DNA from: Ruegeria aquimaris
GTDB taxonomy: Bacteria > Pseudomonadota > Alphaproteobacteria > Rhodobacterales > Rhodobacteraceae
NCBI RefSeq assembly: GCF_025751555.1
Contig: NZ_JAOWLB010000001.1
Location: forward strand, 62,001 to 126,000
DNA length: 64,000 bases
Direction of reading: 5' to 3'
In this document: one piece after another, positions 17,206-33,946 of the stretch
Layout: every line of letters begins with the position of its first letter
Numbering within the stretch: position 1 is the first letter of the stretch
Notes under the pieces: model-generated
Databases searched by the model: none
What the model was told of the DNA's origin: nothing
The model's input: only the letters and a program-made list of their open reading frames with translations
Translations under genes and position numbers: made by a program

Positions 17206-17909
17206 GCCTCTTCCTCCAGAACATCGCTCATCGGCACCAGATGGGTCGTCGCCTTGTCCCGGATCAGCATGCCGAACCGCTCGTCGACCCCCAGAAAGGT
17301 ACCCGACAGCCCGGCTCGCGTCACCGCTTCGCCGACACCCTGCACCAGCCCCATCCATTCCGCATGCAGCGGCCCGTTGCCATCGCTTTCCCAGCGGTTG
17401 ATCCAGGTCATCACATGCCGCGCCCAGCTTTCCAGCAGTTGCTCGGCAGGCACATCGGCACAGCCCTCTTCATAGAGCGCTGTCCGGTCCGGTGTATCTC
17501 CGGGATCCTCGGCGGTCTGCAACAGAACCAGGTCCAGGCCGACGACCAGCCAGTCCGGCACCGCCGCAGGCTCAGCCGTATCCGCCGCCACCTGCAAACG
17601 CCCGCACAGCGCGCCGTTCACCCGAATGCCGCCCTCCCAGGTCAGGTGCACCGCCACCTCGGGCGGGGCCAGCGCGCCCAGTGCGTTCTGGAACCCGACA
17701 CCGCAAAGCGGCAGCATCGCCATCGCCTCGGCCAGCGCCACCTCGGGGGCAAAGACCAGCGCCGCCCGCAGCCGGTCGGCCTGGACGTTATGCACCACCG
17801 TCCCGCCGTCACAGCCCATCGCGGCCATGGCGCGGGCGCGGTCAAACGGCGCCTCGCCCCCCGATACGGCAACGCCCTGCATCAGCGGAGGAAAGGTGGG
17901 TGTGCTCAT
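17202..17909 (-). CDS. Biotin/lipoate ligase-like protein with DUF4444
   Basis: 235 residues. The N-terminal part resembles the catalytic fold of the biotin/lipoate A/B ligase family, but the usual biotin-ligase GRGRxGR motif is replaced. The C-terminal part (LSGTFLGVDERFGMLIRDKATTHLVPMSDVLEE) matches DUF4444. It overlaps both neighbours by four bases, so it is translated with mrp and DUF6505. The missing signature makes classical biotin ligation doubtful. A role in attaching or handling a cofactor for the formate dehydrogenase nearby is an inference from context only. Confidence 0.7.
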   Translation of the reverse strand: MSTPTFPPLMQGVAVSGGEAPFDRARAMAAMGCDGGTVVHNVQADRLRAALVFAPEVALAEAMAMLPLCGVGFQNALGALAPPEVAVHLTWEGGIRVNGALCGRLQVAADTAEPAAVPDWLVVGLDLVLLQTAEDPGDTPDRTALYEEGCADVPAEQLLESWARHVMTWINRWESDGNGPLHAEWMGLVQGVGEAVTRAGLSGTFLGVDERFGMLIRDKATTHLVPMSDVLEEEA

Positions 17910-18967
17910 GCCTGCCCCTTGGCGATCATCTCGCGCGCGATCCGGCGGAACGCCTCGGCCTGCGGGCTGTCGGGCTTGCTGACCACGATCGGCGCGCCGC
18001 CGTCGGCGGCGACCCGGATGTCGAGATGCAGCGGGATCTCTCCCAACAGCGGCACGCCCAGCTTCTCCGCCTCGGCGGCAACGCCGCCATGACCGAACAC
18101 ATGTTCCTCATGCCCGCAATTGGAACAGATATGGGTCGACATGTTCTCGATCATGCCCAGGATCGGGGTCTTGAGCTGGCGGAACATGTCGATGCCCTTG
18201 CGGGCGTCGATCAGCGCCACATCCTGCGGGGTCGAGACCACGATGGCGCCATCCACCGCGAATTTCTGGCTCAGCGTCAACTGCACGTCGCCGGTGCCCG
18301 GTGGCAGGTCGACGATCAGCACATCCAGACCGCCCCACTGCACCTGGTTCATCATCTGTTGCAGCGCGCCCATCAGCATCGGACCACGCCAGACCACCGC
18401 CTGCCCCTCGTTGGTCATCAGCCCCATCGACATCATGGTCACGCCATGATTGCGGAGCGGCAGGATGGTCTTGCCATCCGGGCTGGCGGGTCGCCCCGAG
18501 ACGCCCAGCATGCGCGGCTGCGACGGGCCATAGACATCGGCGTCCAAGAGGCCCACGCGCCGCCCCTCGGCGGCCAGCGCACAGGCGAGGTTGGCCGACA
18601 CGGTGGACTTGCCCACGCCGCCCTTGCCCGAGGCGACGGCGACGATCCGGTCGACACCGGCAACCGGCTGCGGCCCTTGCGGCGCCGCCTTGGGGCGCGG
18701 TTTCAAATCGGGCGGCGCCTTGTCGGAATGCGCCGTCATCAGCGCCGAGACCTTGGCGACCCCTTCGACCATCTGCGCGGCCTGCTCGGCGGCGCTTTGT
18801 ACGGGCTTGTACATTTCGGACAATTTGGGGTCGATCTCGAGGACAAAACGGACATTTTCGCCCTCGACGTTCAGCGCCCGGACGATTCCGGCGCTGACGA
18901 TATCCTGCCCCGAGGCCGGATCGGTGATCTTCTTGAGGTTGGCCAGTACGGCGTCACGCAGACTCAT
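17906..18967 (-). CDS. mrp: Mrp/NBP35 family iron-sulfur carrier ATPase
   Basis: A 353-residue Mrp (ApbC) protein. An N-terminal MIP18-like domain (SLRDAVLANLKKITDP... ) is followed by the P-loop ATPase core with VASGKGGVGKSTVSANLA, DADVYGPSQPRMLG, VDLPPGTGD and a CSNCGHEE pair of cysteines that bridges a [4Fe-4S] cluster between two subunits. It carries iron-sulfur clusters to apoproteins. Sitting in an operon next to a formate dehydrogenase rich in [4Fe-4S] clusters, it may serve those subunits. This may be the only mrp in the genome, but that cannot be judged from here. Confidence 0.93.
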   Translation of the reverse strand: MSLRDAVLANLKKITDPASGQDIVSAGIVRALNVEGENVRFVLEIDPKLSEMYKPVQSAAEQAAQMVEGVAKVSALMTAHSDKAPPDLKPRPKAAPQGPQPVAGVDRIVAVASGKGGVGKSTVSANLACALAAEGRRVGLLDADVYGPSQPRMLGVSGRPASPDGKTILPLRNHGVTMMSMGLMTNEGQAVVWRGPMLMGALQQMMNQVQWGGLDVLIVDLPPGTGDVQLTLSQKFAVDGAIVVSTPQDVALIDARKGIDMFRQLKTPILGMIENMSTHICSNCGHEEHVFGHGGVAAEAEKLGVPLLGEIPLHLDIRVAADGGAPIVVSKPDSPQAEAFRRIAREMIAKGQA

Positions 18968-19161
18968 GCGTCACCATCCTTGATCAGGCCGGTCACCTCG
19001 TGGCTGACATCCAGCCCTTCGACGGTCAGAACGATTTTTGCTTTGAATTCCTTGCCTTCCGGACTGCCCGCCAGGCGCAACCCCTCCTCGATCGCCTGCT
19101 GGCTGGTGACGCCCACCTGCTTGAGGAACTTGCGCATCGACATGTTGTAATCGCCGCTCAT
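18964..19161 (-). CDS. Small DUF6494 family protein
   Basis: A 65-residue soluble protein (MSGDYNMSMRKFLKQVGVTSQQAIEEGL...) matching a small family (DUF6494) seen beside mrp and formate dehydrogenase genes in alphaproteobacteria. The ATG at 19161 is preferred to the longer frame start at 19185. It overlaps mrp by four bases (ATGA). It is probably the first gene of this minus-strand operon. No catalytic residues are apparent. Confidence 0.7.
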   Translation of the reverse strand: MSGDYNMSMRKFLKQVGVTSQQAIEEGLRLAGSPEGKEFKAKIVLTVEGLDVSHEVTGLIKDGDA

Positions 19162-19228
19162 GGCCCGGTCTCTCCTGTATCCCACGCATCATTTGACGCA
19201 TCCCCCGCACCGCCATTACGCTGCGAAC

Positions 19229-19957
19229 ATGCGACACGCCCTCTTGTGCCTCACCCTGCTCGCCTCCGCCACCCCCTGCGCCGCACAGGAGGCAATCGGT
19301 CTGGCCAGCCCCGAGGCGGTGGCACGCTCGGGTCTTCTGCAACATATTCTGCCGCGCTTCTCGCTCAAGACCGGAATTCGCGTTATCATCGACTCCGAAG
19401 GCCCGATGGAACTGACGACCGTAACCGACGACGCGCCGGTTTTCCGGCGCGGCGATGTGGTTTACTTCCTTCATACCGACGGGTCGGAACGGCAGGAACG
19501 GTTCCATGACTGGCTGCAAAGTGATATCGGCAAGCGCACGATCGAAGCTTTCGTGCCACAGGACGGTCCCGCCTTTTCCGCCAGTTTCGAGACAGCTGAA
19601 CCCGAAGCCGCGCCGCAGTTTGACGGCAACGCGGCCCTTGGCGCGCAACTGTCGCTGGAAAAATGCGGGCGATGTCATGTGGTTGGCGAGCAGAACCGGA
19701 TGAAGGGGATCGGTTCTACCCCGTCCTTTGGCGTGCTGCGCGCCCTGTCCGACTGGGACAGCCGGTTCCAGTCCTTCTACGCTCTGCGCCCGCACCCCGC
19801 CTTTACCCAGGTAGAAGGCATCACGGCGCCCTTCGATGCCGAACGCCCCTCGCCGATCTACCCGGTGACGCTGACGCCCGAGGAACTGGAGGCCATCCTT
19901 GCCTTTGTCGCGGCAACCGGCGCAGCCGACCTGGGTGCGCCATTGATCATGAAATAG
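19229..19957 (+). CDS. Periplasmic cytochrome c with TupA-like N-terminal half
   Basis: 242 residues with a signal peptide (MRHALLCLTLLASATPCAAQ). Residues about 22-115 resemble a shortened tungstate-binding protein: SGLLQHILPRFSLKTGIRV parallels SGLLDHILPAFTAESGIEV of the TupA encoded at 31560, and RFHDWLQSDIGKRTIEAF parallels RFIDWLIGSDGQAAIASY. The middle lobe of TupA is missing. Residues about 130-242 are a mono-haem cytochrome c with CGRCH (Cys146, Cys149, His150). It is transcribed away from mrp and toward the fdh region. The domain pairing suggests a periplasmic electron carrier with a metal- or anion-binding fold derived from TupA. A plain cytochrome with chance similarity is the alternative. 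Confidence 0.8.
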   Translation: MRHALLCLTLLASATPCAAQEAIGLASPEAVARSGLLQHILPRFSLKTGIRVIIDSEGPMELTTVTDDAPVFRRGDVVYFLHTDGSERQERFHDWLQSDIGKRTIEAFVPQDGPAFSASFETAEPEAAPQFDGNAALGAQLSLEKCGRCHVVGEQNRMKGIGSTPSFGVLRALSDWDSRFQSFYALRPHPAFTQVEGITAPFDAERPSPIYPVTLTPEELEAILAFVAATGAADLGAPLIMK

Positions 19958-20010: not shown

Positions 20011-21960
20011 TCAATGGTCCTTGCGCCTGCTGAAGTAATCCTCGGTGGTGACCGTGCGTGGCCGTTCCTTGGCGGCAAACGGGTTGTCCGTCGCCTGGAA
20101 CTGGGCGCCCACCCGGCAATTGTCGCACATCTGGATCATCCGCGCCTGCGCGCTTTCGGCGAACATCGGGTGTTTGCCCGCGAGCTTCTCCATGATCCGC
20201 TCGACGGTCGAGCGGACGCCGAAGAGCGCGCCGCATTCGATACAGGCAAAGGGTTCTTCCTCGTTCAGCACGCGTTGGCCTAGCGCCGCTTCGGACAGGT
20301 CAAGCCGCGGTTCCAGCGTGATCGCCTGTTCCGGGCAGATGGTCCGGCAGATACCGCATTGCAGACAGGCGTCCTCCTGAAAGTTCAACTGCGGCATGTC
20401 CGGATTGTCGATCAGCGCCCCCGAGGGGCAGAGCGACACGCAACTGAGGCACAGGGTGCAGGCATCCGTGTTCACCACCACTGCACCATAAGGCGCCGCC
20501 TCGGGCAATGGCAGGACCGGCCCGCCCGGGTTCAGCGCCTGAGCCGCCAGCCGCGTGACCTGCCTGCGATTGCCCATCGGCAGCACCGGATCCGCCAGCG
20601 GTGCTTTAACTTCCGCCATGTAGAGATGTTCGGACAAGGCGTCAGGGTCGGTCATATCAAGCAGGCTCAACCGTCCCGGCCCTGCTATCGCCACGGCCAG
20701 CGCCAGTTCACGGTCCAGTGCCTCGCGCTCGGTCCTCTGTCCGCACAGGACCGACACAGACGCAAACCCATGCGCCAGCCCGGCCAGCATCTCGGCATGA
20801 CCAAACCCGGAAACAACGTTCAGTTCCAGTGGGATGACATCGGCGGGCAGACCCCGGCCGAACCGGGCCGCGAGGCGGATCATCTCGGCCCCGTGCGCGT
20901 CGTGCACCAAGAGGCGCGGCGCGCTCCCCCCCGCCTTGCGATAGGTCCGCGCCAGGATCTGCATCCGCGCCAGGAGGGTGGCAAGCGCGGGATCTTCATA
21001 GGTGATCGCGGTCGAGGGGCACAGCGCCGCACAGGCGCCGCACCCCGCGCAAACCATCGGATCGATGGACACGTGATCGCCCGCCGGCGTGATCGCCCCG
21101 GTCGGGCAGATATCAAGGCAGTTCGAACAGCCGGTCTGTTCAGCGCGCGCATGAGCGCAGAGGCTTTCGTTCAGCCGGACATAGAGCGGTTTCTCGAAAG
21201 TCCCGGTCAGTTGCGCGGCCTCAAAGGCCAGACGCTCGACCGCCAGCGCATCGCGCGGGTCTGCGCGCAGATAGCCTTCGCGCTTTTCCCAGGCCGGCAC
21301 CATGGGCGTGCCGCCGGTAAGGTCGATCACGATATCACATTCTGACACGGCGCGATCCTTCGGCGCCGTCAGTTCAAAGGCCCCACGCCCGCCCGGCAGG
21401 ACTTGCCGGAACCCGTCGATCCGCAACCGGAAACCTCCCAGGGCGCCCCGTACCCGAACCAGTTTGCCGGTCACCACGTCATAGGCACGCGTGATCGGCA
21501 GGTCGCCTTCGGTAATCAGCGCGGTCACCGCCAGCACCCCGGACAGGCGCTCGGCCAGGTCGCAGACGGCATGGGCCGGACCGGCGATCAGGCACACCCC
21601 CTCGCTGAGCACATCCACCGCCGGGGTCACCGGAACCGGCATCAGTGCCTCGGCCGCCAAAGCCGCCATCTTGGGCGCGGCCTGCTCCCCTTGCTCAGAC
21701 CAGCCCGCTCGGTCGCGCAGGTCGACAAATCCGGGTGTTTCAACCCCCAGGTCTTCGGCCAGGGCCGTGAATACCGCCTGCTCCTGTCCGCAGGCCATGA
21801 TGGCTTCGCCAGCCTGAAGCAGATCGGCGGCTTGTTCCTGTCCGGTTGTGCAAAGTGCACTAAAGACGCGCGTGCATCCGGCTCCGCAAGCTGTCGAGAT
21901 CAGTTCCGCGTCAATGGATTGCGACCCGGCGCAATCGCAAAGAATCAGTGTCTTGGACAT
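20011..21960 (-). CDS. Multi-cluster 4Fe-4S ferredoxin-type protein, fdh-associated
   Basis: 649 residues, cytoplasmic. The start at 21960 has a GGAGAAAG site; frame upstream to 22131 is not coding-like. The first 300 residues hold a CDCAGS start and an N-terminal CGxC-poor domain resembling HdrA/CoxMo accessory proteins. Ferredoxin clusters follow: CSNCLDICPTG, CAGCGACAALCPS, CTLCLSCVSLCPS, CLQCGICRTICPE, and a C-terminal CIECGALFG with a later CDNC. This gives at least four [4Fe-4S] sites. It lies divergent from the DUF3305 gene, the usual neighbour in this formate dehydrogenase locus, and probably carries electrons in the cytoplasm for assembly or for reduction of a partner. Exact function unknown. 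Confidence 0.85.
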   Translation of the reverse strand: MSKTLILCDCAGSQSIDAELISTACGAGCTRVFSALCTTGQEQAADLLQAGEAIMACGQEQAVFTALAEDLGVETPGFVDLRDRAGWSEQGEQAAPKMAALAAEALMPVPVTPAVDVLSEGVCLIAGPAHAVCDLAERLSGVLAVTALITEGDLPITRAYDVVTGKLVRVRGALGGFRLRIDGFRQVLPGGRGAFELTAPKDRAVSECDIVIDLTGGTPMVPAWEKREGYLRADPRDALAVERLAFEAAQLTGTFEKPLYVRLNESLCAHARAEQTGCSNCLDICPTGAITPAGDHVSIDPMVCAGCGACAALCPSTAITYEDPALATLLARMQILARTYRKAGGSAPRLLVHDAHGAEMIRLAARFGRGLPADVIPLELNVVSGFGHAEMLAGLAHGFASVSVLCGQRTEREALDRELALAVAIAGPGRLSLLDMTDPDALSEHLYMAEVKAPLADPVLPMGNRRQVTRLAAQALNPGGPVLPLPEAAPYGAVVVNTDACTLCLSCVSLCPSGALIDNPDMPQLNFQEDACLQCGICRTICPEQAITLEPRLDLSEAALGQRVLNEEEPFACIECGALFGVRSTVERIMEKLAGKHPMFAESAQARMIQMCDNCRVGAQFQATDNPFAAKERPRTVTTEDYFSRRKDH

Positions 21961-22254
21961 TCTTTCTCCATCCGGCCCGGCGCTGCGGACCTCCCTTCTC
22001 CCGTGTTGGACTGTGGCCCAGCTTGACCGTGCCGTAAAGGCCACATGGATCGCGATAAACTTTTGTATACCTTTCCTTGGCACACAGACCGTTCGCGCTA
22101 GATGACGAAGACTGAGCAGATTAAGATACATTTGAGTTCTATCTTTTCTGGTAAGAAAACTGGGCCAATCCTCTCAAAAGCCTTGGCAGATGTGTTTTTA
22201 CCTCGCATAGTTTGACGGACGGAAAGAAGGGGAGAGCTTTCCGGGGAGGACCGT
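21961..22254. promoter_or_regulatory. Divergent promoter region, ferredoxin gene / DUF3305 operon
   Basis: 294 bases with no gene, AT-richer than the flanks. A short hairpin TTTTCT/AGAAAA (22144-22159) sits in the middle. No FNR-type TTGAT-N4-ATCAA or sigma-54 site is visible. Promoters for both operons must lie here. Confidence 0.45.
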
Positions 22255-22815
22255 TTGGCCAAGGCCGCAAACAAACGCATCGAAATGCCGCTGGGCGTGG
22301 TTGTCCGCAAGTCGCCGGGCGTAACCCGCTGGGTTCGATGGAACTGGCGTGCCGTCGCTGTCCTGCCGGGGGCGGGACCAGCCGACTGGGCGGAATTGCG
22401 GCGCGAAGGCGAGGCTGTCGAATACCATGCGGCCACTCTGCCGCTGGTGCTCTGGTCCTCGGACGCCGAAGCCTACATGATCAACCTGGCCGACGGGATG
22501 CCCTCCATTTACTTGGTGCTGCGCGAGAGCGACGCGGCCGACCGTCCGCTGGACGCGGTTCTGGTCACGGCATCGCCTTACGAAGGTCAGGACTATGCCG
22601 ACACATCGGATGACATCGTCGAAAAGATTCCTATGACACCAGGGCTGATTGCATGGGTACGGGATTTCGCACTGGCGCATTTCGAGGCCGAGGGTTTTGT
22701 CAAACGCAAGCGGGATCGCAAGCGGGTCGATCTGGTCGAAGACGGGCGCGGCGATGCGCGTATCCGACAGGAGACTGATGTCTATCGTGCGCCGGGCCGG
22801 AGGGTGGTGCAATGA
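22255..22815 (+). CDS. DUF3305 family protein (fdh accessory)
   Basis: 186 residues. MPLGVVVRKSPGVTRWVRWNWRAVAVLPGA and the AEAYMINLADGMPSIYLVLR segment match DUF3305. It is a soluble protein known only from formate dehydrogenase clusters. The start is a TTG at 22255, five bases after GGGGAGGA; the next ATG is ten codons later and has no such site. The stop overlaps the next start as ATGA. The C-terminal region is strongly basic (KRKRDRKR). Function unknown. Confidence 0.82.
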   Translation: MAKAANKRIEMPLGVVVRKSPGVTRWVRWNWRAVAVLPGAGPADWAELRREGEAVEYHAATLPLVLWSSDAEAYMINLADGMPSIYLVLRESDAADRPLDAVLVTASPYEGQDYADTSDDIVEKIPMTPGLIAWVRDFALAHFEAEGFVKRKRDRKRVDLVEDGRGDARIRQETDVYRAPGRRVVQ

Positions 22816-23426
22816 GCGCGGGCAGTGATTTCTGGACCAGGCGCCGCGCGGCGGTGGTGGCCGAAGAGCGCGCCGAAGCAGCGGCGCTCAGCGCCGAGGC
22901 GCGCGCGCAGGCGCAAGCGGCGCTGGAGCAGGAAAGCGACGAAGACATTCTCGCACGGCTTGAACTGCCTGATCCGGATACGCTGCAACCCGGCGATGAC
23001 GTTGCGCGTTTCATGTCCGATCTGGTACCCGACCGGCTGCGACGCCGGGCCTTGCGCCGCCTCTGGCGCCTGAACCCGGTTCTGGCAAATGTAGATGGTC
23101 TCGTCGATTACGGCGAGGACTACACCGATGCCGCACTTGTGGTGGAGAACCTGCAAACCGCCTATCAGGTCGGCAAGGGCATGCTTGCGCATATCGAGGC
23201 TCTGGCCGCGCAGGCCAAAGGCGAGGAGGACACCGGAGAGGAAGACCTGCCCGCCACAACGCCAGACGAGACGGAAGAGGCCCCGCTTGTGCTCGCCGAG
23301 ACCTCCCCGCCCGAGATGGAGGCTGCGTCCGCAGCCGACGCGGGCAACGAGGTGGTCCCCTTGCGGGACCCCGAGGCGCCCGCCCTCCCCGCACCGCGCC
23401 GCATGCGTTTTTCGTTCGAAGGATAG
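22812..23426 (+). CDS. DUF3306 family protein (fdh accessory)
   Basis: 204 residues. It starts with SDFWTRRRAAVVAEERAEAAA, a long Ala/Glu helix, then LPDPDTLQPGDDVARFMSDLVPDRLRRRALRRLWRLNPVLANVDGLVDYGEDYTD, the core of DUF3306. The last 70 residues are acidic and proline-rich, probably unstructured. It is always paired with DUF3305 and is translated with it here. Its role in formate dehydrogenase maturation is inferred from co-occurrence only. Confidence 0.82.
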   Translation: MSAGSDFWTRRRAAVVAEERAEAAALSAEARAQAQAALEQESDEDILARLELPDPDTLQPGDDVARFMSDLVPDRLRRRALRRLWRLNPVLANVDGLVDYGEDYTDAALVVENLQTAYQVGKGMLAHIEALAAQAKGEEDTGEEDLPATTPDETEEAPLVLAETSPPEMEAASAADAGNEVVPLRDPEAPALPAPRRMRFSFEG

Positions 23427-23429
23427 AGA

Positions 23430-24041
23430 ATGGCCCAGACCAGCACAGCAATACCCACGATCGGCGAAGAGGACCGGCTGCGCGCGGATTTCTACAATTT
23501 CCTGGGGCTCATCCTGGCGGCGCCGCCAGACCAGATGCTGCTGAACCAGGTGGCTGGACTTTCGGGCGACGAGTCGGATCTGGGCCAGGCGATCGGCGCC
23601 ATGGCGCGCGTGGCCCGTGTGACAAAACCAGCCGCCGCGGAGCGCGAGTTCAACGCGCTGTTCATTGGCTTGGGACGGGGCGAGTTGCTGCCTTACGCCA
23701 GCTACTACCTCACCGGTTTCTTGAATGAAAAGCCGCTGGCTCAGTTGCGACAGGACATGGCGGCGCGTGGCATCACCCGTGCCCGGAATGTCTATGAGCC
23801 CGAGGACAATATCGCCTCACTTATGGAAATGATGGCGGGCATGATCGTGGGGCGGTTCGGAAAACCGGCCACGCTGGACGACCAGAAGACCTTCTGGGCA
23901 CGACATATCGGCCCCTGGGCCGGTCATTTCTTTACGGATTTGGAAGGCGCCGAGAATTCGGTCCTCTATGCCTCGGTCGGCTCTGCCGGCCGGGTGTTCA
24001 TGGAGATCGAGCGCGAAGCCTTCCGGATGACGGCGGCCTGA
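23430..24041 (+). CDS. TorD/DmsD-type molecular chaperone
   Basis: A 203-residue all-helical protein of the TorD family. It has FYNFLGLILAAPPDQMLLNQ at the start, the YASYYLTGFLNEKPLAQLR region and the EPEDNIASLMEMMAGMI motif (E-P-x-D-H type) typical of these chaperones. They bind the Tat signal of molybdo- or tungstopterin enzymes until the cofactor is inserted. The Tat-borne FdhA is encoded next, so FdhA is the likely client. It starts three bases after the DUF3306 stop. Confidence 0.88.
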   Translation: MAQTSTAIPTIGEEDRLRADFYNFLGLILAAPPDQMLLNQVAGLSGDESDLGQAIGAMARVARVTKPAAAEREFNALFIGLGRGELLPYASYYLTGFLNEKPLAQLRQDMAARGITRARNVYEPEDNIASLMEMMAGMIVGRFGKPATLDDQKTFWARHIGPWAGHFFTDLEGAENSVLYASVGSAGRVFMEIEREAFRMTAA

Positions 24042-24399: not shown

Positions 24400-27294
24400 A
24401 TGCTAAGGAAAAAGACCAACGGGGTTGCGCGACGCCCCCAGCGGACTTCGATCCTGTCCCAGGTCGGTGACACCCATGTCGACCGCCGCGCGTTCCTGCG
24501 CGGTTCGGGTCTGGCGATCGGCGGCCTTGCCGCGATCAGCGCCACGGGCGGAACCGTGACGCAGGCCAGCGCCCAAACGGCAGCCGGATCCGCCGTTGAG
24601 ACCGTGAAATCGGTCTGCACCCACTGCTCGGTGGGCTGTACCGTCATCGCCGAAGTCAAGAGCGGCGTCTGGATCGGGCAGGAGCCCGGCTGGGACAGCC
24701 CGTTCAACCTGGGTGCACATTGCGCAAAGGGGGCCTCGGTCCGCGAGCATGCCCATGGCGAACGCCGCCTCAAGTACCCGATGAAGAAAGAGGGCGGCGA
24801 GTGGAAGCGCATCAGCTGGGACCAGGCGATCAACGAGATCGGCGACGGCATGATGAAGATCCGCGACGAAAGCGGACCTGACAGCGTCTACTGGCTGGGC
24901 TCGGCCAAGCACAATAACGAACAGGCCTATCTGTTCCGCAAGTTCGCCGCCTATTGGGGCACGAACAACGTGGATCACCAGGCCCGTATCTGTCACTCGA
25001 CGACCGTCGCAGGTGTTGCCAACACCTGGGGCTATGGCGCGATGACGAACAGCTATAACGACATCCACAATTCCAAGGCCATCTTCATCATCGGCGGCAA
25101 CCCGGCCGAGGCGCATCCCGTCTCTCTGTTGCACGTTCTGAAGGCCAAGGAGCAGAATAACGCACCGCTGATCGTCTGCGACCCGCGCTTTACGCGCACG
25201 GCCGCGCATGCCGACGAATACGTGCGCTTCCGGCCCGGCACCGACGTGGCGCTGGTCTGGGGCATCCTGTGGCACATCTTCGAGAACGGCTGGGAGGACA
25301 AGGAGTTCATCCGCACCCGCGTCTGGGGGATGGATCAGATCCGTGAAGAAGTCGCCCGCTGGACGCCCGAAGAGACCGAGCGCGTCACCGGCGTGCCCGG
25401 AAGCCAGTTGCGCCGCGTCGCGATGCAGATGGCCAACAACCGTCCCGGCACCGTGATCTGGTGCATGGGCGGCACCCAGCACACCAATGGCAACAACAAC
25501 ACCCGCGCCTATTGCGTGCTCCAGCTGGCGCTGGGCAACATGGGCACGAGCGGCGGCGGCACCAACATCTTCCGCGGCCATGACAACGTGCAGGGCGCGA
25601 CCGACCTTGGTGTGCTCAGCCATACGCTGCCAGGCTATTATGGTCTGACGGCGGGTGCCTGGGGCCATTGGGGCCGGGTCTGGGGCGAGGACATGGACTG
25701 GCTCAAGGCCCAGTTCGCCACCGTCAAGGACAAGGACGGCAAGGACAAGTCGTTGATGCTGGAAACCGGTATCCCGGTCAGCCGCTGGATTGACGGTGTG
25801 CTGGAAAACCCGGAAAATATGGACCAGCCCAACAATGTTCGCGCCATGGTGCTGTGGGGTCATGCCCCCAACAGCCAGACCCGTGGCACGGAAATGAAGA
25901 CGGCGATGGAAAAGCTCGACATGCTAGTCGTGATCGACCCCTATCCGACCGTCTCGGCTGTCATGCATGACCGGACCGACGGGGTCTACCTGCTGCCGGC
26001 CTGCACGCAGTTCGAAACCCGCGGCTCTGTCACGGCATCGAACCGCTCGCTCCAGTGGCGCGACAAGGTGGTCGATCCGCTGTTCGAATCGCTGCCGGAC
26101 GAGGTCATCATGGCCAAGTTCGCCAACAAGTTCGGCTGGGCCGATCGGCTGTTCCGGAACATCGAGATGGATGACCTGGAAACACCCAATGTCGAGAGCA
26201 TCACGCGCGAGTTCAACTCGGGCCTCTGGACCATCGGCTATACCGGCCAGTCGCCTGAGCGGCTCAAGAGCCACATGGCCAATCAGCACACGTTCGACAA
26301 GACGACGTTGCAGGCTGTGGGCGGTCCCAATGATGGCGAGTACTATGGCCTGCCCTGGCCCTGCTGGGGGACTGCCGAGATGGGCCACCCGGGCACGCCC
26401 AACCTCTATGACATGTCCAAGCCGGTTGCCGAAGGCGGCCTGTGCTTCCGGGCACGTTTCGGGGTCGAGCGGGACGGAGACAACCTTCTGGCAGAAGGGG
26501 TGTCGAACCCGGGCGCGGAGATCCAGGACGGTTACCCTGAGTTCACCATGCAGATGCTGATGGACCTGGGCTGGGACGGCGACCTGACGCCTGAGGAACG
26601 CGCGGCAATCGACGCTGTCGCGGCCGAAAAGACCAACTGGAAGACCGACCTTTCGGGCGGTATCCAGCGGGTGGCGATCAAGCATGGCTGCGCCCCGTTC
26701 GGCAATGCCAAGGCCCGTGCCGTGGTCTGGACCTTCCCGGACCCGATCCCGGTACACCGCGAACCGCTCTATACCAACCGGCGCGATCTGGTGGCGGATT
26801 ATCCAACCTACGAGGACCGCAAGTTCTATCGTCTGCCGACGCTTTATGCGTCGATCCAGAAGAACGACTTCTCGAAGGATTATCCGATCATCCTGACCTC
26901 GGGTCGACTGGTCGAATACGAGGGCGGCGGCGACGAGACGCGCTCGAACCCCTGGCTGGCCGAGTTGCAGCAGGACATGTTCGTCGAGATCAACCCCCGC
27001 GATGCCAACAACCTGGGCATCCGCGAAGGGCAACAGGTCTGGGTCGAAGGTCCCGAGGGTGGCAAGGTCAAGGTGATGGCGATGCTGACCGAAAGGGTCG
27101 GTGCCGGCGTGGCCTTCATGCCCTTCCACTTTGGCGGGCATTTCCAGGGCGAGGATCTCAGGTCGAAATATCCGGCCGGGGCCGATCCCTATGTCCTGGG
27201 CGAGGCAACCAACACCGCCCAGACCTATGGCTACGATTCAGTGACCCAGATGCAGGAGACCAAAGCGACTCTCTGCAAGATCTGGGCAGCGTAA
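24400..27294 (+). CDS. fdhA: Formate dehydrogenase, catalytic subunit (Cys-type, Tat-exported)
   Basis: A 964-residue molybdo/tungstopterin oxidoreductase. It carries a Tat signal (RRAFLRGSGLAIGG, 29-42), a [4Fe-4S] site with Cys73, Cys76, Cys80 and Cys108, and the catalytic Cys198-His199 pair (ARICHSTTVAG) that ligates the metal. Codon 198 is TGT, so no selenocysteine is used. The C-terminal molybdopterin-dinucleotide-binding domain starts at about 820 (YPIILTSGRLVEYEGGGDETRSNPWLAEL). It oxidises formate to CO2 in the periplasm, feeding FdhB. The tungstate importer nearby makes tungsten a plausible metal. A GGAGG site lies seven bases upstream. Confidence 0.95.
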   Translation: MLRKKTNGVARRPQRTSILSQVGDTHVDRRAFLRGSGLAIGGLAAISATGGTVTQASAQTAAGSAVETVKSVCTHCSVGCTVIAEVKSGVWIGQEPGWDSPFNLGAHCAKGASVREHAHGERRLKYPMKKEGGEWKRISWDQAINEIGDGMMKIRDESGPDSVYWLGSAKHNNEQAYLFRKFAAYWGTNNVDHQARICHSTTVAGVANTWGYGAMTNSYNDIHNSKAIFIIGGNPAEAHPVSLLHVLKAKEQNNAPLIVCDPRFTRTAAHADEYVRFRPGTDVALVWGILWHIFENGWEDKEFIRTRVWGMDQIREEVARWTPEETERVTGVPGSQLRRVAMQMANNRPGTVIWCMGGTQHTNGNNNTRAYCVLQLALGNMGTSGGGTNIFRGHDNVQGATDLGVLSHTLPGYYGLTAGAWGHWGRVWGEDMDWLKAQFATVKDKDGKDKSLMLETGIPVSRWIDGVLENPENMDQPNNVRAMVLWGHAPNSQTRGTEMKTAMEKLDMLVVIDPYPTVSAVMHDRTDGVYLLPACTQFETRGSVTASNRSLQWRDKVVDPLFESLPDEVIMAKFANKFGWADRLFRNIEMDDLETPNVESITREFNSGLWTIGYTGQSPERLKSHMANQHTFDKTTLQAVGGPNDGEYYGLPWPCWGTAEMGHPGTPNLYDMSKPVAEGGLCFRARFGVERDGDNLLAEGVSNPGAEIQDGYPEFTMQMLMDLGWDGDLTPEERAAIDAVAAEKTNWKTDLSGGIQRVAIKHGCAPFGNAKARAVVWTFPDPIPVHREPLYTNRRDLVADYPTYEDRKFYRLPTLYASIQKNDFSKDYPIILTSGRLVEYEGGGDETRSNPWLAELQQDMFVEINPRDANNLGIREGQQVWVEGPEGGKVKVMAMLTERVGAGVAFMPFHFGGHFQGEDLRSKYPAGADPYVLGEATNTAQTYGYDSVTQMQETKATLCKIWAA

Positions 27295-27306
27295 GGAGGA
27301 CCGATA

Positions 27307-27900
27307 ATGGCAAGAGCAAAGTTTCTCTGCGACGCTGAACGCTGCATCGAGTGCAACGCCTGCGTCACCGCGTGCAAGAACGAGCACGAGGTGCCCTGGG
27401 GCATCAACCGCCGCCGGGTGGTGACGATCAATGACGGCAAGCCGGGCGAGCGCTCGATCTCGGTGGCCTGCATGCATTGCTCGGATGCCCCCTGCATGGC
27501 GGTCTGCCCGGTGGACTGCTTCTACCAGACCGAAGACGGTGTGGTGCTGCATTCCAAGGACCTGTGCATCGGCTGCGGCTATTGCTTCTACGCGTGCCCC
27601 TTCGGCGCGCCGCAATATCCGCAAGCGGGCAACTTCGGATCGCGCGGCAAGATGGACAAGTGCACCTTCTGCGCTGGTGGCCCGGAAGAGACCCACTCGA
27701 CGGCAGAATTCGCCAAGTACGGGCGCAACCGGATCGCCGAGGGCAAGCTGCCCATCTGCGCCGAGATGTGCTCGACCAAGGCGCTTCTGGCGGGCGACGG
27801 CGACGTGGTCTCGGCCATCTACCGCGAACGCGTGGTGGCCCGTGGCTTCGGTTCGGGCGCCTGGGGCTGGGGCACGGCCTATGACCAGAAAGGCGGCTGA
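27307..27900 (+). CDS. fdhB: Formate dehydrogenase, iron-sulfur subunit
   Basis: 197 residues with four ferredoxin-type cysteine groups: CIECNACVTACKNEH, CMHCSDAPCMAVCPVDC, CIGCGYCFYACPFG and CTFCAGG...CAEMC. It relays electrons from FdhA to the cytochrome b subunit. It follows fdhA by 12 bases with AAGGAGGA before its ATG. The protein has no Tat signal of its own, so it is probably exported with FdhA. Unlike E. coli FdnH, there is no C-terminal membrane anchor. Confidence 0.94.
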   Translation: MARAKFLCDAERCIECNACVTACKNEHEVPWGINRRRVVTINDGKPGERSISVACMHCSDAPCMAVCPVDCFYQTEDGVVLHSKDLCIGCGYCFYACPFGAPQYPQAGNFGSRGKMDKCTFCAGGPEETHSTAEFAKYGRNRIAEGKLPICAEMCSTKALLAGDGDVVSAIYRERVVARGFGSGAWGWGTAYDQKGG

Positions 27901-27917
27901 TCCCGCCTGAACACCAG

Positions 27918-27942
27918 ACTGGCGCGGCCCCGCCGCGCCAGT
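27918..27942 (+). terminator. Hairpin after fdhB
   Basis: Perfect 10-bp stem ACTGGCGCGG / CCGCGCCAGT with a five-base loop. It is followed by CCCCCACTTGAATTTTCC rather than a clean T-run. It may attenuate transcription into fdhC or protect the fdhAB mRNA end. Confidence 0.5.
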
Positions 27943-28023
27943 CCCCCACTTGAATTTTCCTTGAAAGTTCTCCGCCCCGCTTTGTGGCGGGCACTATTTC
28001 TGCGATCTGCCGAAGAGGGTAAA

Positions 28024-29208
28024 ATGCCGGTTCTGCGACTCCTCCTCTGTCTCATCTGCCTCTCCCTGCCTGCCTGGGCACAAGAGCAAGCGACCCCCGA
28101 CCGATCTGCCACCGGTGGCGCCACCACGCTGGAGGACATTCTGGCCCGTCAGCGTGGGGAAAAGGTTGATCCGACCTATCGCTCCAGTGAAACCGGAAGC
28201 CAGGAGTCGCCCTATGAGGCCCAGCTCGGCATTCGTGGAGGCGCCTCGGACAGCGACATCTACCGCGCCCTGCGCTATGGTTCGGCCGACGTCACCGTCT
28301 CGGCCCGGGGGCCTGCTGCAGACGTCATCATCCAGGACAGCGGCATGTGGTGGGTGACTTTCCGCACGGGCCCGCTGCGCGAATATGGGACCTATGCCCT
28401 GGGTGGTATGGTCGTCGTTCTGCTACTGTTCTACCTGCTTCGCGGCAAGATCCGCATCGACGGCGAAAAGACCGGTCGGACGGTCACACGCTTCACGGAT
28501 TTCGAGCGCTTTGGCCACTGGCTGTTTGCCGGATCCTTTCTTGTGCTGGCGGTATCGGGCTTGATCACCCTGTATGGTCGTGACTTCCTGATCCCCCTGA
28601 TTGGCAAGGAGGCCTTTGCGACCGTCGCGCTGGCCTGCAAGTGGCTGCACAACAATATCGCCTGGGCCTTCATGCTGGGGCTGGTCATCGTCACCCTCAA
28701 CTGGATCGCCCATAACATCCCCAACCGGCACGACCTCAAATGGCTTGCGGTCGGCGGCGGGTTGTTCAGCAAGGGCAGCCACCCACCGGCCAAGAAGTTC
28801 AACGCCGGTCAGAAGATCATCTTCTGGCTCTGCATCCTGCTGGGCGTGTCCATCTCGCTTTCGGGTCTGTCGCTGCTCTTCCCCTTTGAAATGCCGATGT
28901 TTGCCAAGACCTTTGCGCTGGCCAATGCCACCGGCCTGCCGCAGATGATGGGCCTGACGCTCTCCGAAACAATGGGCCCGCATCAAGAGATGCAGTTCGC
29001 CCAGCTCTGGCATATCATCGTGGCCTTTGCCTTTATCACCATCATCATCGCCCATATCTATCTGGGCTCGGTCGGCATGGAAGGTGCCTTTGACGCGATG
29101 GGAACCGGCGAAGTCGAAGAACAATGGGCCCGTGAACACCATTCGCTGTGGCTGGACGAGGTCAAATCGGCCGAAGCCACCCAGGGAAAACCCACACCAG
29201 CAGAATGA
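28024..29208 (+). CDS. fdhC: Formate dehydrogenase, cytochrome b556 (gamma) subunit
   Basis: 394 residues. The ATG at 28024 follows GAGGG and starts a signal peptide (MPVLRLLLCLICLSLPAWAQ). A periplasmic segment of about 100 residues precedes four or more transmembrane helices. The di-haem cytochrome b pattern is visible: RFTDFERFGHWLFAGSFLVLAVSGL, CKWLHNNIAWAFMLG, and LWHIIVAFAFITIIIAHIYLG with haem-ligand histidines. It passes electrons to the quinone pool. A TTG-started frame from 27961 is rejected. The stop overlaps the next ATG. Confidence 0.92.
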   Translation: MPVLRLLLCLICLSLPAWAQEQATPDRSATGGATTLEDILARQRGEKVDPTYRSSETGSQESPYEAQLGIRGGASDSDIYRALRYGSADVTVSARGPAADVIIQDSGMWWVTFRTGPLREYGTYALGGMVVVLLLFYLLRGKIRIDGEKTGRTVTRFTDFERFGHWLFAGSFLVLAVSGLITLYGRDFLIPLIGKEAFATVALACKWLHNNIAWAFMLGLVIVTLNWIAHNIPNRHDLKWLAVGGGLFSKGSHPPAKKFNAGQKIIFWLCILLGVSISLSGLSLLFPFEMPMFAKTFALANATGLPQMMGLTLSETMGPHQEMQFAQLWHIIVAFAFITIIIAHIYLGSVGMEGAFDAMGTGEVEEQWAREHHSLWLDEVKSAEATQGKPTPAE

Positions 29209-30476
29209 TGCGGGCGCTGGCGCTGGCGATGATCCTGCTGCCCGTGGCCGGGGCGGCAGAGTTCTTTACCCTCAAGGGGCACGGCGGCCCGATCATGGGC
29301 ATCGCTACCGCCCCTGACGGGCGCATCGCCACCGCCAGTTTCGACAATTCCGTGGGTCTGTGGACCGGGACGCAGGCCAGCTGGTTGGAAGGGCATGAGG
29401 CAGCAGTCAATGCGGTCGCGTTCAACGGCACCGCGCTCTATTCGGTCAGTGACGACTTTACCCTGCGCCGTTGGCCCGGTGGCGGCATTGTCGGCCAGCA
29501 CCAGGGCAAGATCGTGGCGGTGGCGCTGTCCGAAACCCAAGTGGCGACCGCCAGTTGGGATGGAACCATCGGCCTCTGGCCGCAGGACGGCACAACGGGC
29601 CGCTTGCTGGGTCCGACAGGGGCCGGAGTGAACGCGGTCGCCTTCAGCGCTGACGGTTCCCGCCTCTTCTCGGCCGGCATGGATGGGGTACTGCGGCTCT
29701 GGGATGTGAACAGCGGGCAGGAACTGCGCCAGCTGGTTCGCCACGGATTTGGCATCAACGAGATCGTGCTGAATGAAAGCGACGGCTGGCTGGCCTATGG
29801 CGCGGTCGATGGGGTGACCCGGATTCTGGATCTCGAAACCGGGGCGGAACGCGATTTTACGCTGGATCGCCGTCCCATCCTGGCCCTGACCTTGAGCCCC
29901 GACCGCCGCCACCTCGCCGTGGGAGATGGCGAGGGCTACATCATGGTGATCGACACGTCAGACTGGCGTATCGCCCGCGACTTTCGCGCCACCCTGAACG
30001 GGCCGGTCTGGGCGCTGGCGTTCTCTCCGAACGGCAAGAACATCCACGCTGGCGGGATTGCCGACACCATGTACAGCTGGCCCGTCGATTCATTGGACGA
30101 ACATGGCAAGATGGCGGAAACGGACCGGAGTTTTCTGAAAGACCCGGACAAGATGGAGAACGGCGAGCGCCAGTTCGCGCGCAAATGCTCGATCTGTCAT
30201 GCATTGACGCCCGATGGCGGGCGTAGGGCCGGCCCGACACTCTTTGGCATTTTTGGCCGCCCCGCCGGTACCCTGTCCGGTTACCTTTACTCCGACACAC
30301 TGAAAGGTTCGGATATCGTCTGGACGGACGAAACGATCAATTTGCTTTTCGACCTCGGCCCGGACCATTACATTCCGGGGTCAAAGATGCCGATGCAGAG
30401 GATCACCCAAGCGCAGGATCGCGCCGACCTGATCGCTTATCTGCACCGGGCCACTCAAGTGGAGAACCAGAAATGA
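29205..30476 (+). CDS. Periplasmic WD40 beta-propeller fused to cytochrome c
   Basis: 423 residues with a signal peptide (MMRALALAMILLPVAGAA). Residues about 20-300 contain roughly seven WD40-type repeats with recurrent HGGPIMGIATAPDGRIATAS...VGLW, NAVAFNG...SDDFTLRRW and NAVAFSADG...DGVLRLWD units. Residues about 320-423 are a class I cytochrome c with CSICH (Cys328, Cys331, His332) and a distal Met395 or Met397 (SKMPM). It overlaps fdhC as ATGA, so it is co-translated with the formate dehydrogenase. It could be the periplasmic electron acceptor, or dock FdhABC to another redox enzyme. The pairing of a propeller with cytochrome c in an fdh operon is uncommon in standard descriptions. Confidence 0.88.
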   Translation: MMRALALAMILLPVAGAAEFFTLKGHGGPIMGIATAPDGRIATASFDNSVGLWTGTQASWLEGHEAAVNAVAFNGTALYSVSDDFTLRRWPGGGIVGQHQGKIVAVALSETQVATASWDGTIGLWPQDGTTGRLLGPTGAGVNAVAFSADGSRLFSAGMDGVLRLWDVNSGQELRQLVRHGFGINEIVLNESDGWLAYGAVDGVTRILDLETGAERDFTLDRRPILALTLSPDRRHLAVGDGEGYIMVIDTSDWRIARDFRATLNGPVWALAFSPNGKNIHAGGIADTMYSWPVDSLDEHGKMAETDRSFLKDPDKMENGERQFARKCSICHALTPDGGRRAGPTLFGIFGRPAGTLSGYLYSDTLKGSDIVWTDETINLLFDLGPDHYIPGSKMPMQRITQAQDRADLIAYLHRATQVENQK

Positions 30477-30598
30477 AAGCCTTCCTGAGCGCCGTCGTCA
30501 TGATGATCGTCGTTACCGTGGCCGCCCCCTATGCCCTGAACCAATTCGGCTTTTCCGCCGCCGACCGGACATCTGGCATCGACGTGCGCCTCGACTGA
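30473..30598 (+). CDS. 41-residue single-helix membrane peptide
   Basis: A short ORF that starts with ATG overlapping the stop of the WD40-cytochrome gene (ATGA) and stops at TGA 30596-30598, directly before the next ATG at 30599. The sequence MKAFLSAVVMMIVVTVAAPY, then ALNQFGFSAADRT and SGIDVRLD, has one hydrophobic N-terminal helix and a polar tail, like a membrane-anchored or secreted small protein. The tight packing on both sides supports translation. Function unknown; a small subunit or assembly factor of the dehydrogenase is possible. Confidence 0.7.
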   Translation: MKAFLSAVVMMIVVTVAAPYALNQFGFSAADRTSGIDVRLD

Positions 30599-31559: not shown

Positions 31560-32378
31560 TTAGTTCGCGTTGGGAAAGAACAACTGCTCACCGTCCAGCG
31601 TGTAGGACGCGATCGCGGCTTGGCCGTCCGATCCGATCAGCCAGTCGATGAACCTTTGACCAGCTTCCGCCTTGACGCCATGGTGTTTCTCCGGGTTCAC
31701 CAGAATCACGCCATACTGGTTGAATAGCCGCGTGTCGCCTTCGACCATGATCTCAAGGTCGCCCTTGTTGGCAAACGCGATCCAGGTGGCGCGGTCGGTC
31801 AGCGCATACGCCCCCATTCCGGCCGCAAGGTTCAGTGTCGCGCCCATCCCCGATCCGGTCTCGCGATACCACCCCCCCGAGGCAGCGGCGACATCCACAC
31901 CAGCCGATTTCCAATGGCTCAGTTCCGCCTTGTGCGTGCCGCTGTCATCGCCGCGCGAGGCAAACGGCACCCCCGCCGTTGCAATCATGCTCATCGCAGC
32001 GACCACATCCTCACCCCCCTTGATACCAGCCGGATCCGCAGCCGGTCCAACCAGTACAAAGTCGTTGTACATCACGTCGAATCGTTGAACGCCCCAGCCC
32101 TCGGCAACAAATTTCTCTTCCGCCGCCTTGGCATGCACCAGCAGCACGTCGCCATCACCGTTCATCGCGTTCTTGATCGCCTGGCCGGTACCGACCGCAA
32201 CGACCCGCACCTCGATCCCGCTTTCCGCCGTAAACGCGGGAAGGATATGATCAAGCAGCCCCGAGTTCTGTGTCGATGTGGTGGACTGCATCACGATGAA
32301 CTCCTCGGTCGCCTGCGCAGACCCTGCCCCAGTGATCGCCAACGCAACAGCGCCAGCCTTGATCCAGTTCTCGAACAT
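31560..32378 (-). CDS. tupA: Tungstate ABC transporter, substrate-binding protein
   Basis: 272 residues with a signal peptide (MFENWIKAGAVALAITGAGSAQA). The mature start IVMQSTTSTQNSGLLDHILPAF is the TupA signature, where the TTSTQNSG loop binds the oxyanion, and SRGDDSGTHKAE in the second lobe completes the site. It captures tungstate in the periplasm with high affinity. The start at 32378 is chosen over a frame open to 32498. It is the last gene of tupB-tupC-tupA, 19 bases after tupC. It supplies metal for the pterin enzyme encoded upstream. Confidence 0.93.
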   Translation of the reverse strand: MFENWIKAGAVALAITGAGSAQATEEFIVMQSTTSTQNSGLLDHILPAFTAESGIEVRVVAVGTGQAIKNAMNGDGDVLLVHAKAAEEKFVAEGWGVQRFDVMYNDFVLVGPAADPAGIKGGEDVVAAMSMIATAGVPFASRGDDSGTHKAELSHWKSAGVDVAAASGGWYRETGSGMGATLNLAAGMGAYALTDRATWIAFANKGDLEIMVEGDTRLFNQYGVILVNPEKHHGVKAEAGQRFIDWLIGSDGQAAIASYTLDGEQLFFPNAN

Positions 32379-32397: not shown

Positions 32398-33132
32398 TCA
32401 GAAAATGAGGTCACCGGCGAGAAAGCGCCGGACTGTTCCATGTGTGGATTGATCCAATACGCGCGCGGCATCCCCATGTTCAGCCACCTGACCGCCAATC
32501 ATCACCACAACATCCCGCGCCAAACGCCTGGCCTGACCGATATCATGGGTCACCATGACAATGCGCACCCCATGGGCGCTGGCACGCATCACCAGCGCCT
32601 CAATCGCTTGGGTGGCACCGGGATCAAGCGCGCTGGTCGGTTCGTCCAGAAACAGGACATCCGGCTCGGTCGCCAACGCCCTTAGGATCGCGAGGCGCTG
32701 AGCCTCGCCCCCCGACAGCGAGCGCGCCCATTGCCGCTCTCGACCGCTCAATCCACCGGTTGCCAGTAACTCGGCGGTCCGCTCTCGCCGCGCAGGGCGC
32801 GACAAACCCTGCCTTCGCAGCACAAAGTCGAGATTGGCCGCCACCGAGCGGCGCAACAGAACCGGGCGCTGAAAGACCATAGCCTGCCGCATCCGCTGGG
32901 CCTTGTTCAACGGCAACCCATCCTGGCACACCTGCCCCGCATCGGCCCGGATCAGCCCGTGCAGGCAGCGCAACAGCAGGCTCTTGCCGGCACCGTTCGG
33001 TCCCAGGATCACCGTCGGCCCCGGTCCACCCAATCGCAGGTGCGCGATGTCCAGAAGGAGCTTGTCGCCGCGCACCAAGCGCAGGCCCGTGGCCTCGATC
33101 AGCACGCCCTGTCCTCCACAGAAATCACGCAT
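32398..33132 (-). CDS. tupC: Tungstate ABC transporter, ATP-binding protein
   Basis: 244 residues. All ABC motifs are present: Walker A GPNGAGKS, signature LSGGEAQR, Walker B VLFLDEPTSALD, and the H-loop THD. The ATG at 33132 overlaps tupB by eight bases. The protein has a short C-terminal end (no regulatory TOBE domain), typical of TupC and unlike ModC. Confidence 0.92.
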   Translation of the reverse strand: MRDFCGGQGVLIEATGLRLVRGDKLLLDIAHLRLGGPGPTVILGPNGAGKSLLLRCLHGLIRADAGQVCQDGLPLNKAQRMRQAMVFQRPVLLRRSVAANLDFVLRRQGLSRPARRERTAELLATGGLSGRERQWARSLSGGEAQRLAILRALATEPDVLFLDEPTSALDPGATQAIEALVMRASAHGVRIVMVTHDIGQARRLARDVVVMIGGQVAEHGDAARVLDQSTHGTVRRFLAGDLIF

Positions 33133-33841
33133 GCCGGACGTCCTCCTGGGCCTCGGCACGCTGTCCGAGCAGGCTGACCATCGCGTTTACAGTGACTGCA
33201 ATGGCAATCAGGACCGTCCCCAATGCCAAGGCCAGCGCCAGATTCCCCTTGGAGGTTTCCAGCGCGATTGTGGTGGTCATCACCCGGGTGACGTGGTTTA
33301 TGTTTCCACCGACGATGATCACCGCGCCCACTTCGGCGATCGCTCGTCCGAACCCGGCCAGCAGCGCCGTTAGCAGCGCCACCCGACCGTCCCACAACAG
33401 GACCGGCACCGTCGCCAGCCGCGACAGACCCAGGCTGCGCATCTGTTCGGCGTATTCCGCATCCAGCATCTCGATCACCTGCCGGGTCAGGGCGGCGATG
33501 ATCGGGGTTACTAGCACCACCTGTGCGATGATCATGGCGGTTGGCGTGTAGAGCAGTTGCAACACCCCAAGCGGGCCCGAGCGCGACAGCATCAGATAGA
33601 CAAGCAACCCCACCACCACCGGCGGCAGCCCCATCAGCGCATTGACCAGTACCGCCAGCGCGCGCCGACCCGGGAACCGTCCCACCGCCAGCGCAGCCCC
33701 CAGTGGCATGCCGATCAGTGCCGCAAACAGAACCGCAAACAGCGATACCCGCAGCGACAGAGCGACGATGCCCAGCAGCTCGGAATCACCAGCCAGGATC
33801 AGGGCGAAAGCCACTTGCATTTCATGCGCAAAATTCTGCAT
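33125..33841 (-). CDS. tupB: Tungstate ABC transporter, permease
   Basis: 238 residues with about five to six transmembrane helices. The permease signature is seen in EMLDAEYAEQMRSLGLSR (EAA loop, contacts TupC) and the AEVGAVIIVGGNINHVTRVMTT segment is a hallmark of TupB. The ATG at 33841 is preceded by TTGGAGAA; a TTG at 33850 would add three residues. It is the first gene of the operon. The upstream region to 33946 is AT-rich and holds its promoter. Confidence 0.9.
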   Translation of the reverse strand: MQNFAHEMQVAFALILAGDSELLGIVALSLRVSLFAVLFAALIGMPLGAALAVGRFPGRRALAVLVNALMGLPPVVVGLLVYLMLSRSGPLGVLQLLYTPTAMIIAQVVLVTPIIAALTRQVIEMLDAEYAEQMRSLGLSRLATVPVLLWDGRVALLTALLAGFGRAIAEVGAVIIVGGNINHVTRVMTTTIALETSKGNLALALALGTVLIAIAVTVNAMVSLLGQRAEAQEDVRHA

Positions 33842-33946
33842 TTTCTCCAAAATGTCTCACATATTTAACGGGAAAACGGTATCTTGCTGCTTAATTCATA
33901 TCATCCTTCAAGATGTCATCCCAAACAAAACCGACATTCCGGCATG

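Follow-up and report, generated by a model that had tools for sequence, protein, structure and literature searches.

A cytochrome c carrying one lobe of a tungstate-binding protein in the FDH3 formate dehydrogenase locus of Ruegeria aquimaris

The window analyzed here, a stretch of 64,000 nucleotides from Ruegeria aquimaris, encodes a predicted monohaem c-type cytochrome in which the haem domain is preceded by a domain of about 98 residues derived from the tungstate-binding protein TupA, placed between a signal peptide and a linker. This domain corresponds to a single TupA lobe, lobe A, which has lost the tungstate-binding residues. We hold it about evenly balanced whether our whole account is right, namely that the protein is a periplasmic cytochrome dedicated to the FDH3 formate dehydrogenase, with a once-fused lobe A as its docking or adapter module. 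The open reading frame with a c-haem proposed in the preliminary description was confirmed, with a product of 242 residues. The gene and its parts are as follows.

19229..19957, plus strand: lobe-cytochrome gene, 242 aa plus stop; homologues found
19229..19285, plus strand: predicted signal peptide, aa 1-19, seen in the sequence by eye; high dN/dS here
19289..19417, plus strand: lobe A, first segment (aa 21-63), resembling TupA precursor residues ~26-80
19424..19582, plus strand: lobe A, second segment (aa 66-118), resembling TupA precursor residues ~212-269
19583..19627, plus strand: linker, aa 119-133, variable and for the most part fast-evolving
19628..19954, plus strand: monohaem c-type cytochrome domain, aa 134-242 (PF00034, E 8e-4)
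19664..19678, plus strand: haem motif CGRCH, aa 146-150, with C146, C149 and H150 in 42/42 domains
19793..19795, plus strand: His189, candidate distal haem ligand, kept in 42/42 domains; ligation putative

The closest named relative is a protein of Ruegeria sp. PrR005 (95% identity). Five plasmid copies are annotated in databases as hypothetical protein (4/5) or c-type cytochrome (1/5), and current annotation overlooks the lobe domain. The gene belongs to an FDH3 formate dehydrogenase locus with the order ApbC/Mrp, DUF6494, lobe-cytochrome, 4Fe-4S protein, DUF3305, DUF3306, TorD-like, fdhA-B-C, WD40-cytochrome, regulator, tupACB.

17906..19161, minus strand: ApbC/Mrp-type ATPase and DUF6494, divergent from the lobe-cytochrome, 67 bp between starts
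20011..22131, minus strand: 4Fe-4S protein, convergent neighbour of the lobe-cytochrome, used as locus marker
22255..24041, plus strand: DUF3305, DUF3306 and TorD/NarJ-like chaperone, from family matches
24400..29208, plus strand: formate dehydrogenase FDH3 alpha, beta and gamma, from NCBIfam matches
29217-30476, plus strand: WD40 beta-propeller plus cytochrome c, the second fused cytochrome of the locus
30599-31471, plus strand: regulator with excisionase-type HTH and PBP_like domain, adjoining tupA
31563..32378, minus strand: tupA, intact two-lobe tungstate-binding protein (272 aa; NF041772, E 3.2e-67, 226.7 bits, cut-off 400)
32398..33856, minus strand: tupC and tupB region, labelled by position; ABC ATPase match at 32401-33126

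The FDH3 assignment is based on matches to the beta (NF038355, 346.9 bits for a cut-off of 240), gamma (TIGR01583, 144.4 bits for a cut-off of 115.85) and alpha subunit models, the last under its cut-off (TIGR01591, 475.5 bits for 666.25). The PBP_like regulator, perhaps responsive to tungstate or molybdate, is another binding-protein fold put to new use in the locus; other window ORFs were judged by eye as to whether they are binding proteins.

The preliminary description had pointed to two motifs shared with the TupA of the same window, and both are borne out by alignment. SGLLQHILPRF of the lobe-cytochrome pairs with SGLLDHILPAF of TupA (SGLLxHILPxF), and RFHDWL, located in the second segment along with the invariant W95 and G101, pairs with RFIDWL (RFxDWL). 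The N-terminal piece scored 71 against the window TupA, the maximum of 2000 TupA shuffles being 52, while the C-terminal piece alone was weaker (score 42, equalled by 3/2000 shuffles). We then used an HMM built from 27 lobes, for which homologue start codons were picked by script. Among the 272 window ORFs of at least 100 residues it found its own gene and TupA only (TupA E 9e-13; next ORF E 3.1), and it matched TupA as two separate segments, in agreement with the deletion of the middle lobe that had been proposed. TupAs of the relatives were matched in the same manner, near the N- and C-terminus, in 29/29 cases (E 2.3e-16 to 1.6e-9); this set covers 29 of 30 TupA loci, L117 being left out with no TupA ORF picked by script. 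Reciprocally, a TupA profile matched 25/27 lobes in two segments with both scores positive, the exceptions being a negative N-terminal score (L023) and a match to the C-terminal segment only (L024), and hhalign gave two segments with probabilities of 95.6 and 95.3. The same pattern appeared unprompted when the whole-family profile was run over 385 genomes of the class: among the matches listed, positions 4-73 hit many ORFs with lengths of about 280-340 residues, and a number of these were hit again by positions of about 60-130, about 600 bases downstream. Chance similarity of the motifs is ruled out by the shuffle test for the N-terminal piece and by the family profiles for both pieces.

Structure prediction against TupA had been set beforehand as the refuting test of the relationship. 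An unrelated fold was not obtained: the best solved match of the predicted fold was TupA 5my5, which aligned at both ends of the chain. Foldseek was in agreement, with a probability of 0.98-0.99 for the TupA fold but an E of 0.04-0.1. When the family profile was compared with PDB sequences, the top entries were 3muq, 5my5 (TupA), 3lr1 (TupA) and 3cvg (E 5e-5 to 0.024), 3muq and 3cvg being uncharacterised binding-protein entries. The main claim of the preliminary description, a TupA-derived fold, is upheld by the predicted fold and this ranking, and together with the profiles they support common ancestry and a common fold of lobe A and TupA. What had been called the end lobes of TupA should be refined: the TupA origin stands, and the retained piece is one lobe, lobe A, so that the two-lobe hinge architecture of TupA is absent. 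The TupA model NF041772 gave no match to the lobe-cytochrome at E up to 10, its cut-off of 400 bits thus not being reached, and matched 7/26 family members weakly (best E 9.8e-5). This cut-off is strict, since the intact TupA of the window itself scores far below it.

To follow the tungstate site, we took the lobe borders and ligands of TupA from a published study, which gives a TTTS motif, the lobe-B ligands R118, T124 and D170, and His59 (PMC5517513). The STTS stretch of the TupAs was equated with the published TTTS by motif, without a structure of the window TupA. All four S/T residues of this stretch are kept in 29/29 TupAs; among the 27 lobes, none is kept in 16, one in 9 and two in 2. 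The equivalents of R118, T124 and D170 fall in the deleted lobe B, and at the place aligned with the likely His59 equivalent a histidine is absent in 27/27 lobes (gap in 21, P or S in 6). SGTH is present in 26/29 TupAs versus 0/27 lobes, and GSGMG in 27/29 versus 0/27. The string RGD occurs in 29/29 TupAs and 3/27 lobes; we did not accept it as a retained site, the RGD of the window lobe-cytochrome being the RRGD of its second segment. Two options had been put forward for the function of the lobe, binding of an oxyanion or just of a redox partner. Oxyanion binding is made unlikely because the TTTS motif, lobe B and the likely His59 equivalent are lost, and a redox partner fits better. The tungstate-binding residues being lost, the lobe therefore probably serves for docking of the carrier to a partner and not for binding metal.

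The lobe is maintained under purifying selection. Its dN/dS was 0.14-0.40 in 8/8 orthologue pairs and that of the cytochrome domain 0.02-0.42, compared to 0.40-1.16 for the signal peptide (7 pairs with a value) and 0 to 1.19 for the linker (6 pairs); some dS values exceed 1, so these ratios are rough. A reading-frame artefact is ruled out by the dN/dS of the lobe and by the 32 fused rows in the haem-domain tree described below. Seven lobe residues are invariant in 26 aligned members: G35, P42, R43, F44, K47, W95 and G101. Two of them, R43 and K47, are new invariants, kept in 27/27 lobes and unconserved in TupA.

The second half of the protein resembles a class I cytochrome c (PF00034) in having a CxxCH motif near the domain start, found in 42/42 haem domains, and a weak profile match. 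It differs in that its score is just below the Pfam cut-off (21.1 bits for a gathering score of 21.3) and in that it has an invariant histidine, His189, and no invariant methionine, Met158 being present in 25/42 domains. The haem, presumably attached through the CxxCH motif, may thus have bis-His ligation. PF00034 matches 24/26 family members at E up to 1. Set A1 comprised 26/27 member rows (without L021) and set A2 39/42 rows (without L002, L004 and L092).

The preliminary description had suggested an HMM search for the same architecture, and this search recovered the fusion in 24/101 relatives and in other genomes; the profile tally of 35/101 is made up of these 24, three cytochrome-only genomes (G008, G057, G061) and eight found through TupA only. 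Among the matches listed, a sample of 398 genomes from across the phylum gave fused proteins in at least seven, a count that includes the own genome and consists entirely of the window's family. Outside that family, the matches listed include two genomes (G347, G425), both from a single other family of the class. Five plasmid records carry them as well (three of Sagittula, one each of Sulfitobacter and Tateyamaria), and cytochrome-only relatives were listed in further families of the class. This conservation across genera rules out a freshly broken tupA.

The gene order of the locus is kept whole or in part among the relatives. The full-length fused cytochrome adjoins the 4Fe-4S marker in 18/24 loci (17 distinct, L031 being identical to L037; L031 was omitted because it duplicates L002). 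The remaining six comprise one at a contig edge (L033), one with the marker on the other side (L034), a remnant (L035) and three cytochrome-only loci (L052, L053, L054). mrp adjoins the lobe-cytochrome in most of the 24 loci, and the WD40-cytochrome lies beside fdhC in at least 9/24, with other stretches being cut short at their end. The tup genes lie a few kb from the cytochrome in several loci, e.g., L033, L044, L046, L049, L095 and L096. By genome, and with kinship ignored, the FDH3 marker is found in 23/24 fused genomes of the 101 relatives, the exception being an 82% complete assembly with a contig edge beside the gene (G012). Thirteen genomes of the 101 carry the marker without the fusion, three having the cytochrome alone and ten no cytochrome match. 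The lobe-cytochrome gene is absent between intact neighbours in G010 and G041, and also absent from G017, in which the 4Fe-4S gene is split between frames. Listed by locus, L130, L131 and L133 are FDH3 loci without it, the 4Fe-4S gene of L133 being split between frames. Counted the same way, 36/36 marker genomes have a TupA gene versus 18/65 without the marker, which suggests that FDH3 of these relatives uses tungsten rather than molybdenum.

In the haem-domain tree (n=42, midpoint-rooted for drawing only), a branch with 97/92 support splits 35 rows, 32 fused and three cytochrome-only, from seven cytochrome-only rows. Of the three cytochrome-only rows inside the fused group, L054 has strong support for its nested position. 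Two state changes are forced by the starred branches, and four are required on the best tree. Provided that the cytochrome-only side is the older state, the lobe was gained once and lost one to three times. In two outside genomes (L086, L087) tupA is the divergent neighbour of the cytochrome, slightly more than 1 kb away, making a local tupA copy a plausible source of the lobe. One genome (G001) contains a remnant (L035 4601-5600) that is like window 18941-19456, then has 27 bases, then is like 30321-30777, with the fdh genes gone; it leaves a short ORF starting in the lobe and ending in the WD40-cytochrome tail. This genome keeps a complete FDH3 locus elsewhere (L036).

The fusion can be compared with two known systems. 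With TupA (NF041772; PDB 5my5), it shares the lobe A fold, the order SGLL-HILP-F then RF-DWL and a signal peptide, whereas it is without lobe B, TTTS and the other ligand residues, has gained a haem domain, and has no known transporter role. The other is XoxG:J (cytochrome cGJ) of Methylacidiphilum, in which a cytochrome c is fused to a XoxJ that is truncated relative to the free XoxJ; the speculation has been that this XoxJ part attaches the fusion protein to methanol dehydrogenase (PMC6688271). XoxJ itself has been described as a periplasmic binding protein. Both fusions thus join a cytochrome c to a truncated binding-protein fold in the locus of a periplasmic dehydrogenase, XoxG:J being encoded together with a separate xoxJ. 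They differ in the enzyme, a PQQ methanol dehydrogenase and not a Mo/W formate dehydrogenase, and the domain order may differ too; XoxG:J is an analogue, XoxJ having no known relation to TupA. One lobe of a binding protein can fold alone, as described for laboratory halves of a type I ribose-binding protein. Among the matches listed in the open-licence literature, we found no description of a TupA-cytochrome fusion, of an FDH3 locus containing it, or, for half binding proteins, of a one-lobe reduction of TupA. Bae et al. reportedly described a shortened solute-binding protein in 2018. The view that such a protein is not described therefore holds, among these matches, for the origin from TupA, the reduction to a single lobe and the setting in an FDH3 locus; it does not hold for the kind, a binding-protein fold joined to a dehydrogenase cytochrome, which has a partial precedent in XoxG:J.

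In the account that we propose, the lobe-cytochrome would be an exported, periplasmic monohaem cytochrome c dedicated to FDH3. A single fusion, in a common ancestor of the window's family and a related one, would have joined it to lobe A of a TupA probably copied from the same locus, and lobe B would have been lost, taking its share of the tungstate site with it. What is left of TupA would fold alone and act as a docking or adapter module that brings the haem close to a partner, of which FDH3 itself is the likeliest; formate electrons could then leave through the lobe-cytochrome as well as the gamma subunit, a direction of flow suggested by the locus alone. The protein is a candidate redox partner of FDH3, with its gene in the FDH3 locus across species, and the docking account is supported by selection on the lobe, the new invariants R43 and K47, the shared locus, the XoxG:J analogy and the ability of one binding-protein lobe to fold alone. 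Against a role as FDH3 carrier, the cytochrome is dispensable, as 10/36 marker genomes of the 101 have no cytochrome match. Cytochrome-only orthologues exist, one of them at the same position (L085), and FDH3 already comes with a cytochrome b gamma subunit, as well as the WD40-cytochrome in the locus. The gene is also transcribed apart from fdhABC, head-to-head with DUF6494/ApbC, an arrangement that could mean another role.

The lobe could instead be a structural passenger: a stable fold, attached by accident, that protects the cytochrome or makes it more stable without docking to anything. Its loss in one to three lineages inside the fused clade, the cytochrome-only orthologue L085 and a lobe dN/dS above that of the haem domain in 6/8 pairs are in line with this, but the ratio is below 0.41 in 8/8 pairs, two of the seven invariant residues are new relative to TupA, and the lobe is kept in 32/35 rows of the clade; we consider a passenger unlikely. 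That an assembly or redox-maturation factor for FDH3 is encoded, rather than an electron carrier, is suggested by the divergent ApbC/Mrp-type Fe-S carrier and DUF6494 genes, and by a cytochrome-only gene on the same strand beside mrp in L086 and L087. ApbC-type carriers are cytosolic, though, while the lobe-cytochrome has a predicted export signal, and a haem c domain is usually an electron carrier, which makes such a factor improbable.

Two further readings return to tungsten or to a ligand. The lobe might dock on the TupBC permease or on TupA, coupling tungsten supply to formate electron flow or sensing it. A TupA gene is indeed present in 24/24 fused genomes and the tup genes are close to the cytochrome in several loci, but TupA occurs in 54/101 genomes, 30 of them without the fusion, and the residues newly invariant in the lobe do not match those of TupA. 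Genomes with the FDH3 marker likewise all have TupA (36/36), so the association may only reflect the metal of the enzyme; we regard this link as rather improbable. Binding of an oxyanion or formate, by the lobe alone or by a dimer with a two-lobe cleft, would have a parallel among type II binding proteins, some of which can bind ligand with an isolated lobe (PMC10601554). It is very unlikely in view of the lost TTTS, the histidine absent in 27/27 lobes and the position of R118, T124 and D170 in the deleted lobe.

Our preferred reading thus remains an FDH3 cytochrome with a docking lobe. A broader generalization is tentative and, in our judgment, doubtful: binding proteins may have been cut down and welded to cytochromes more than once as docking arms of periplasmic dehydrogenases, with lobe A now recognising a probable tungsten enzyme (or the metal-supply machinery) and not the metal. 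The lobe-cytochrome offers a clear example from nature of a binding protein pared down from two lobes to one, its ligand site erased and new invariants acquired, across many genera. It suggests a route from a transport protein to a protein-docking module, and points towards an electron exit that has gone unrecognised in FDH3-type formate dehydrogenases.
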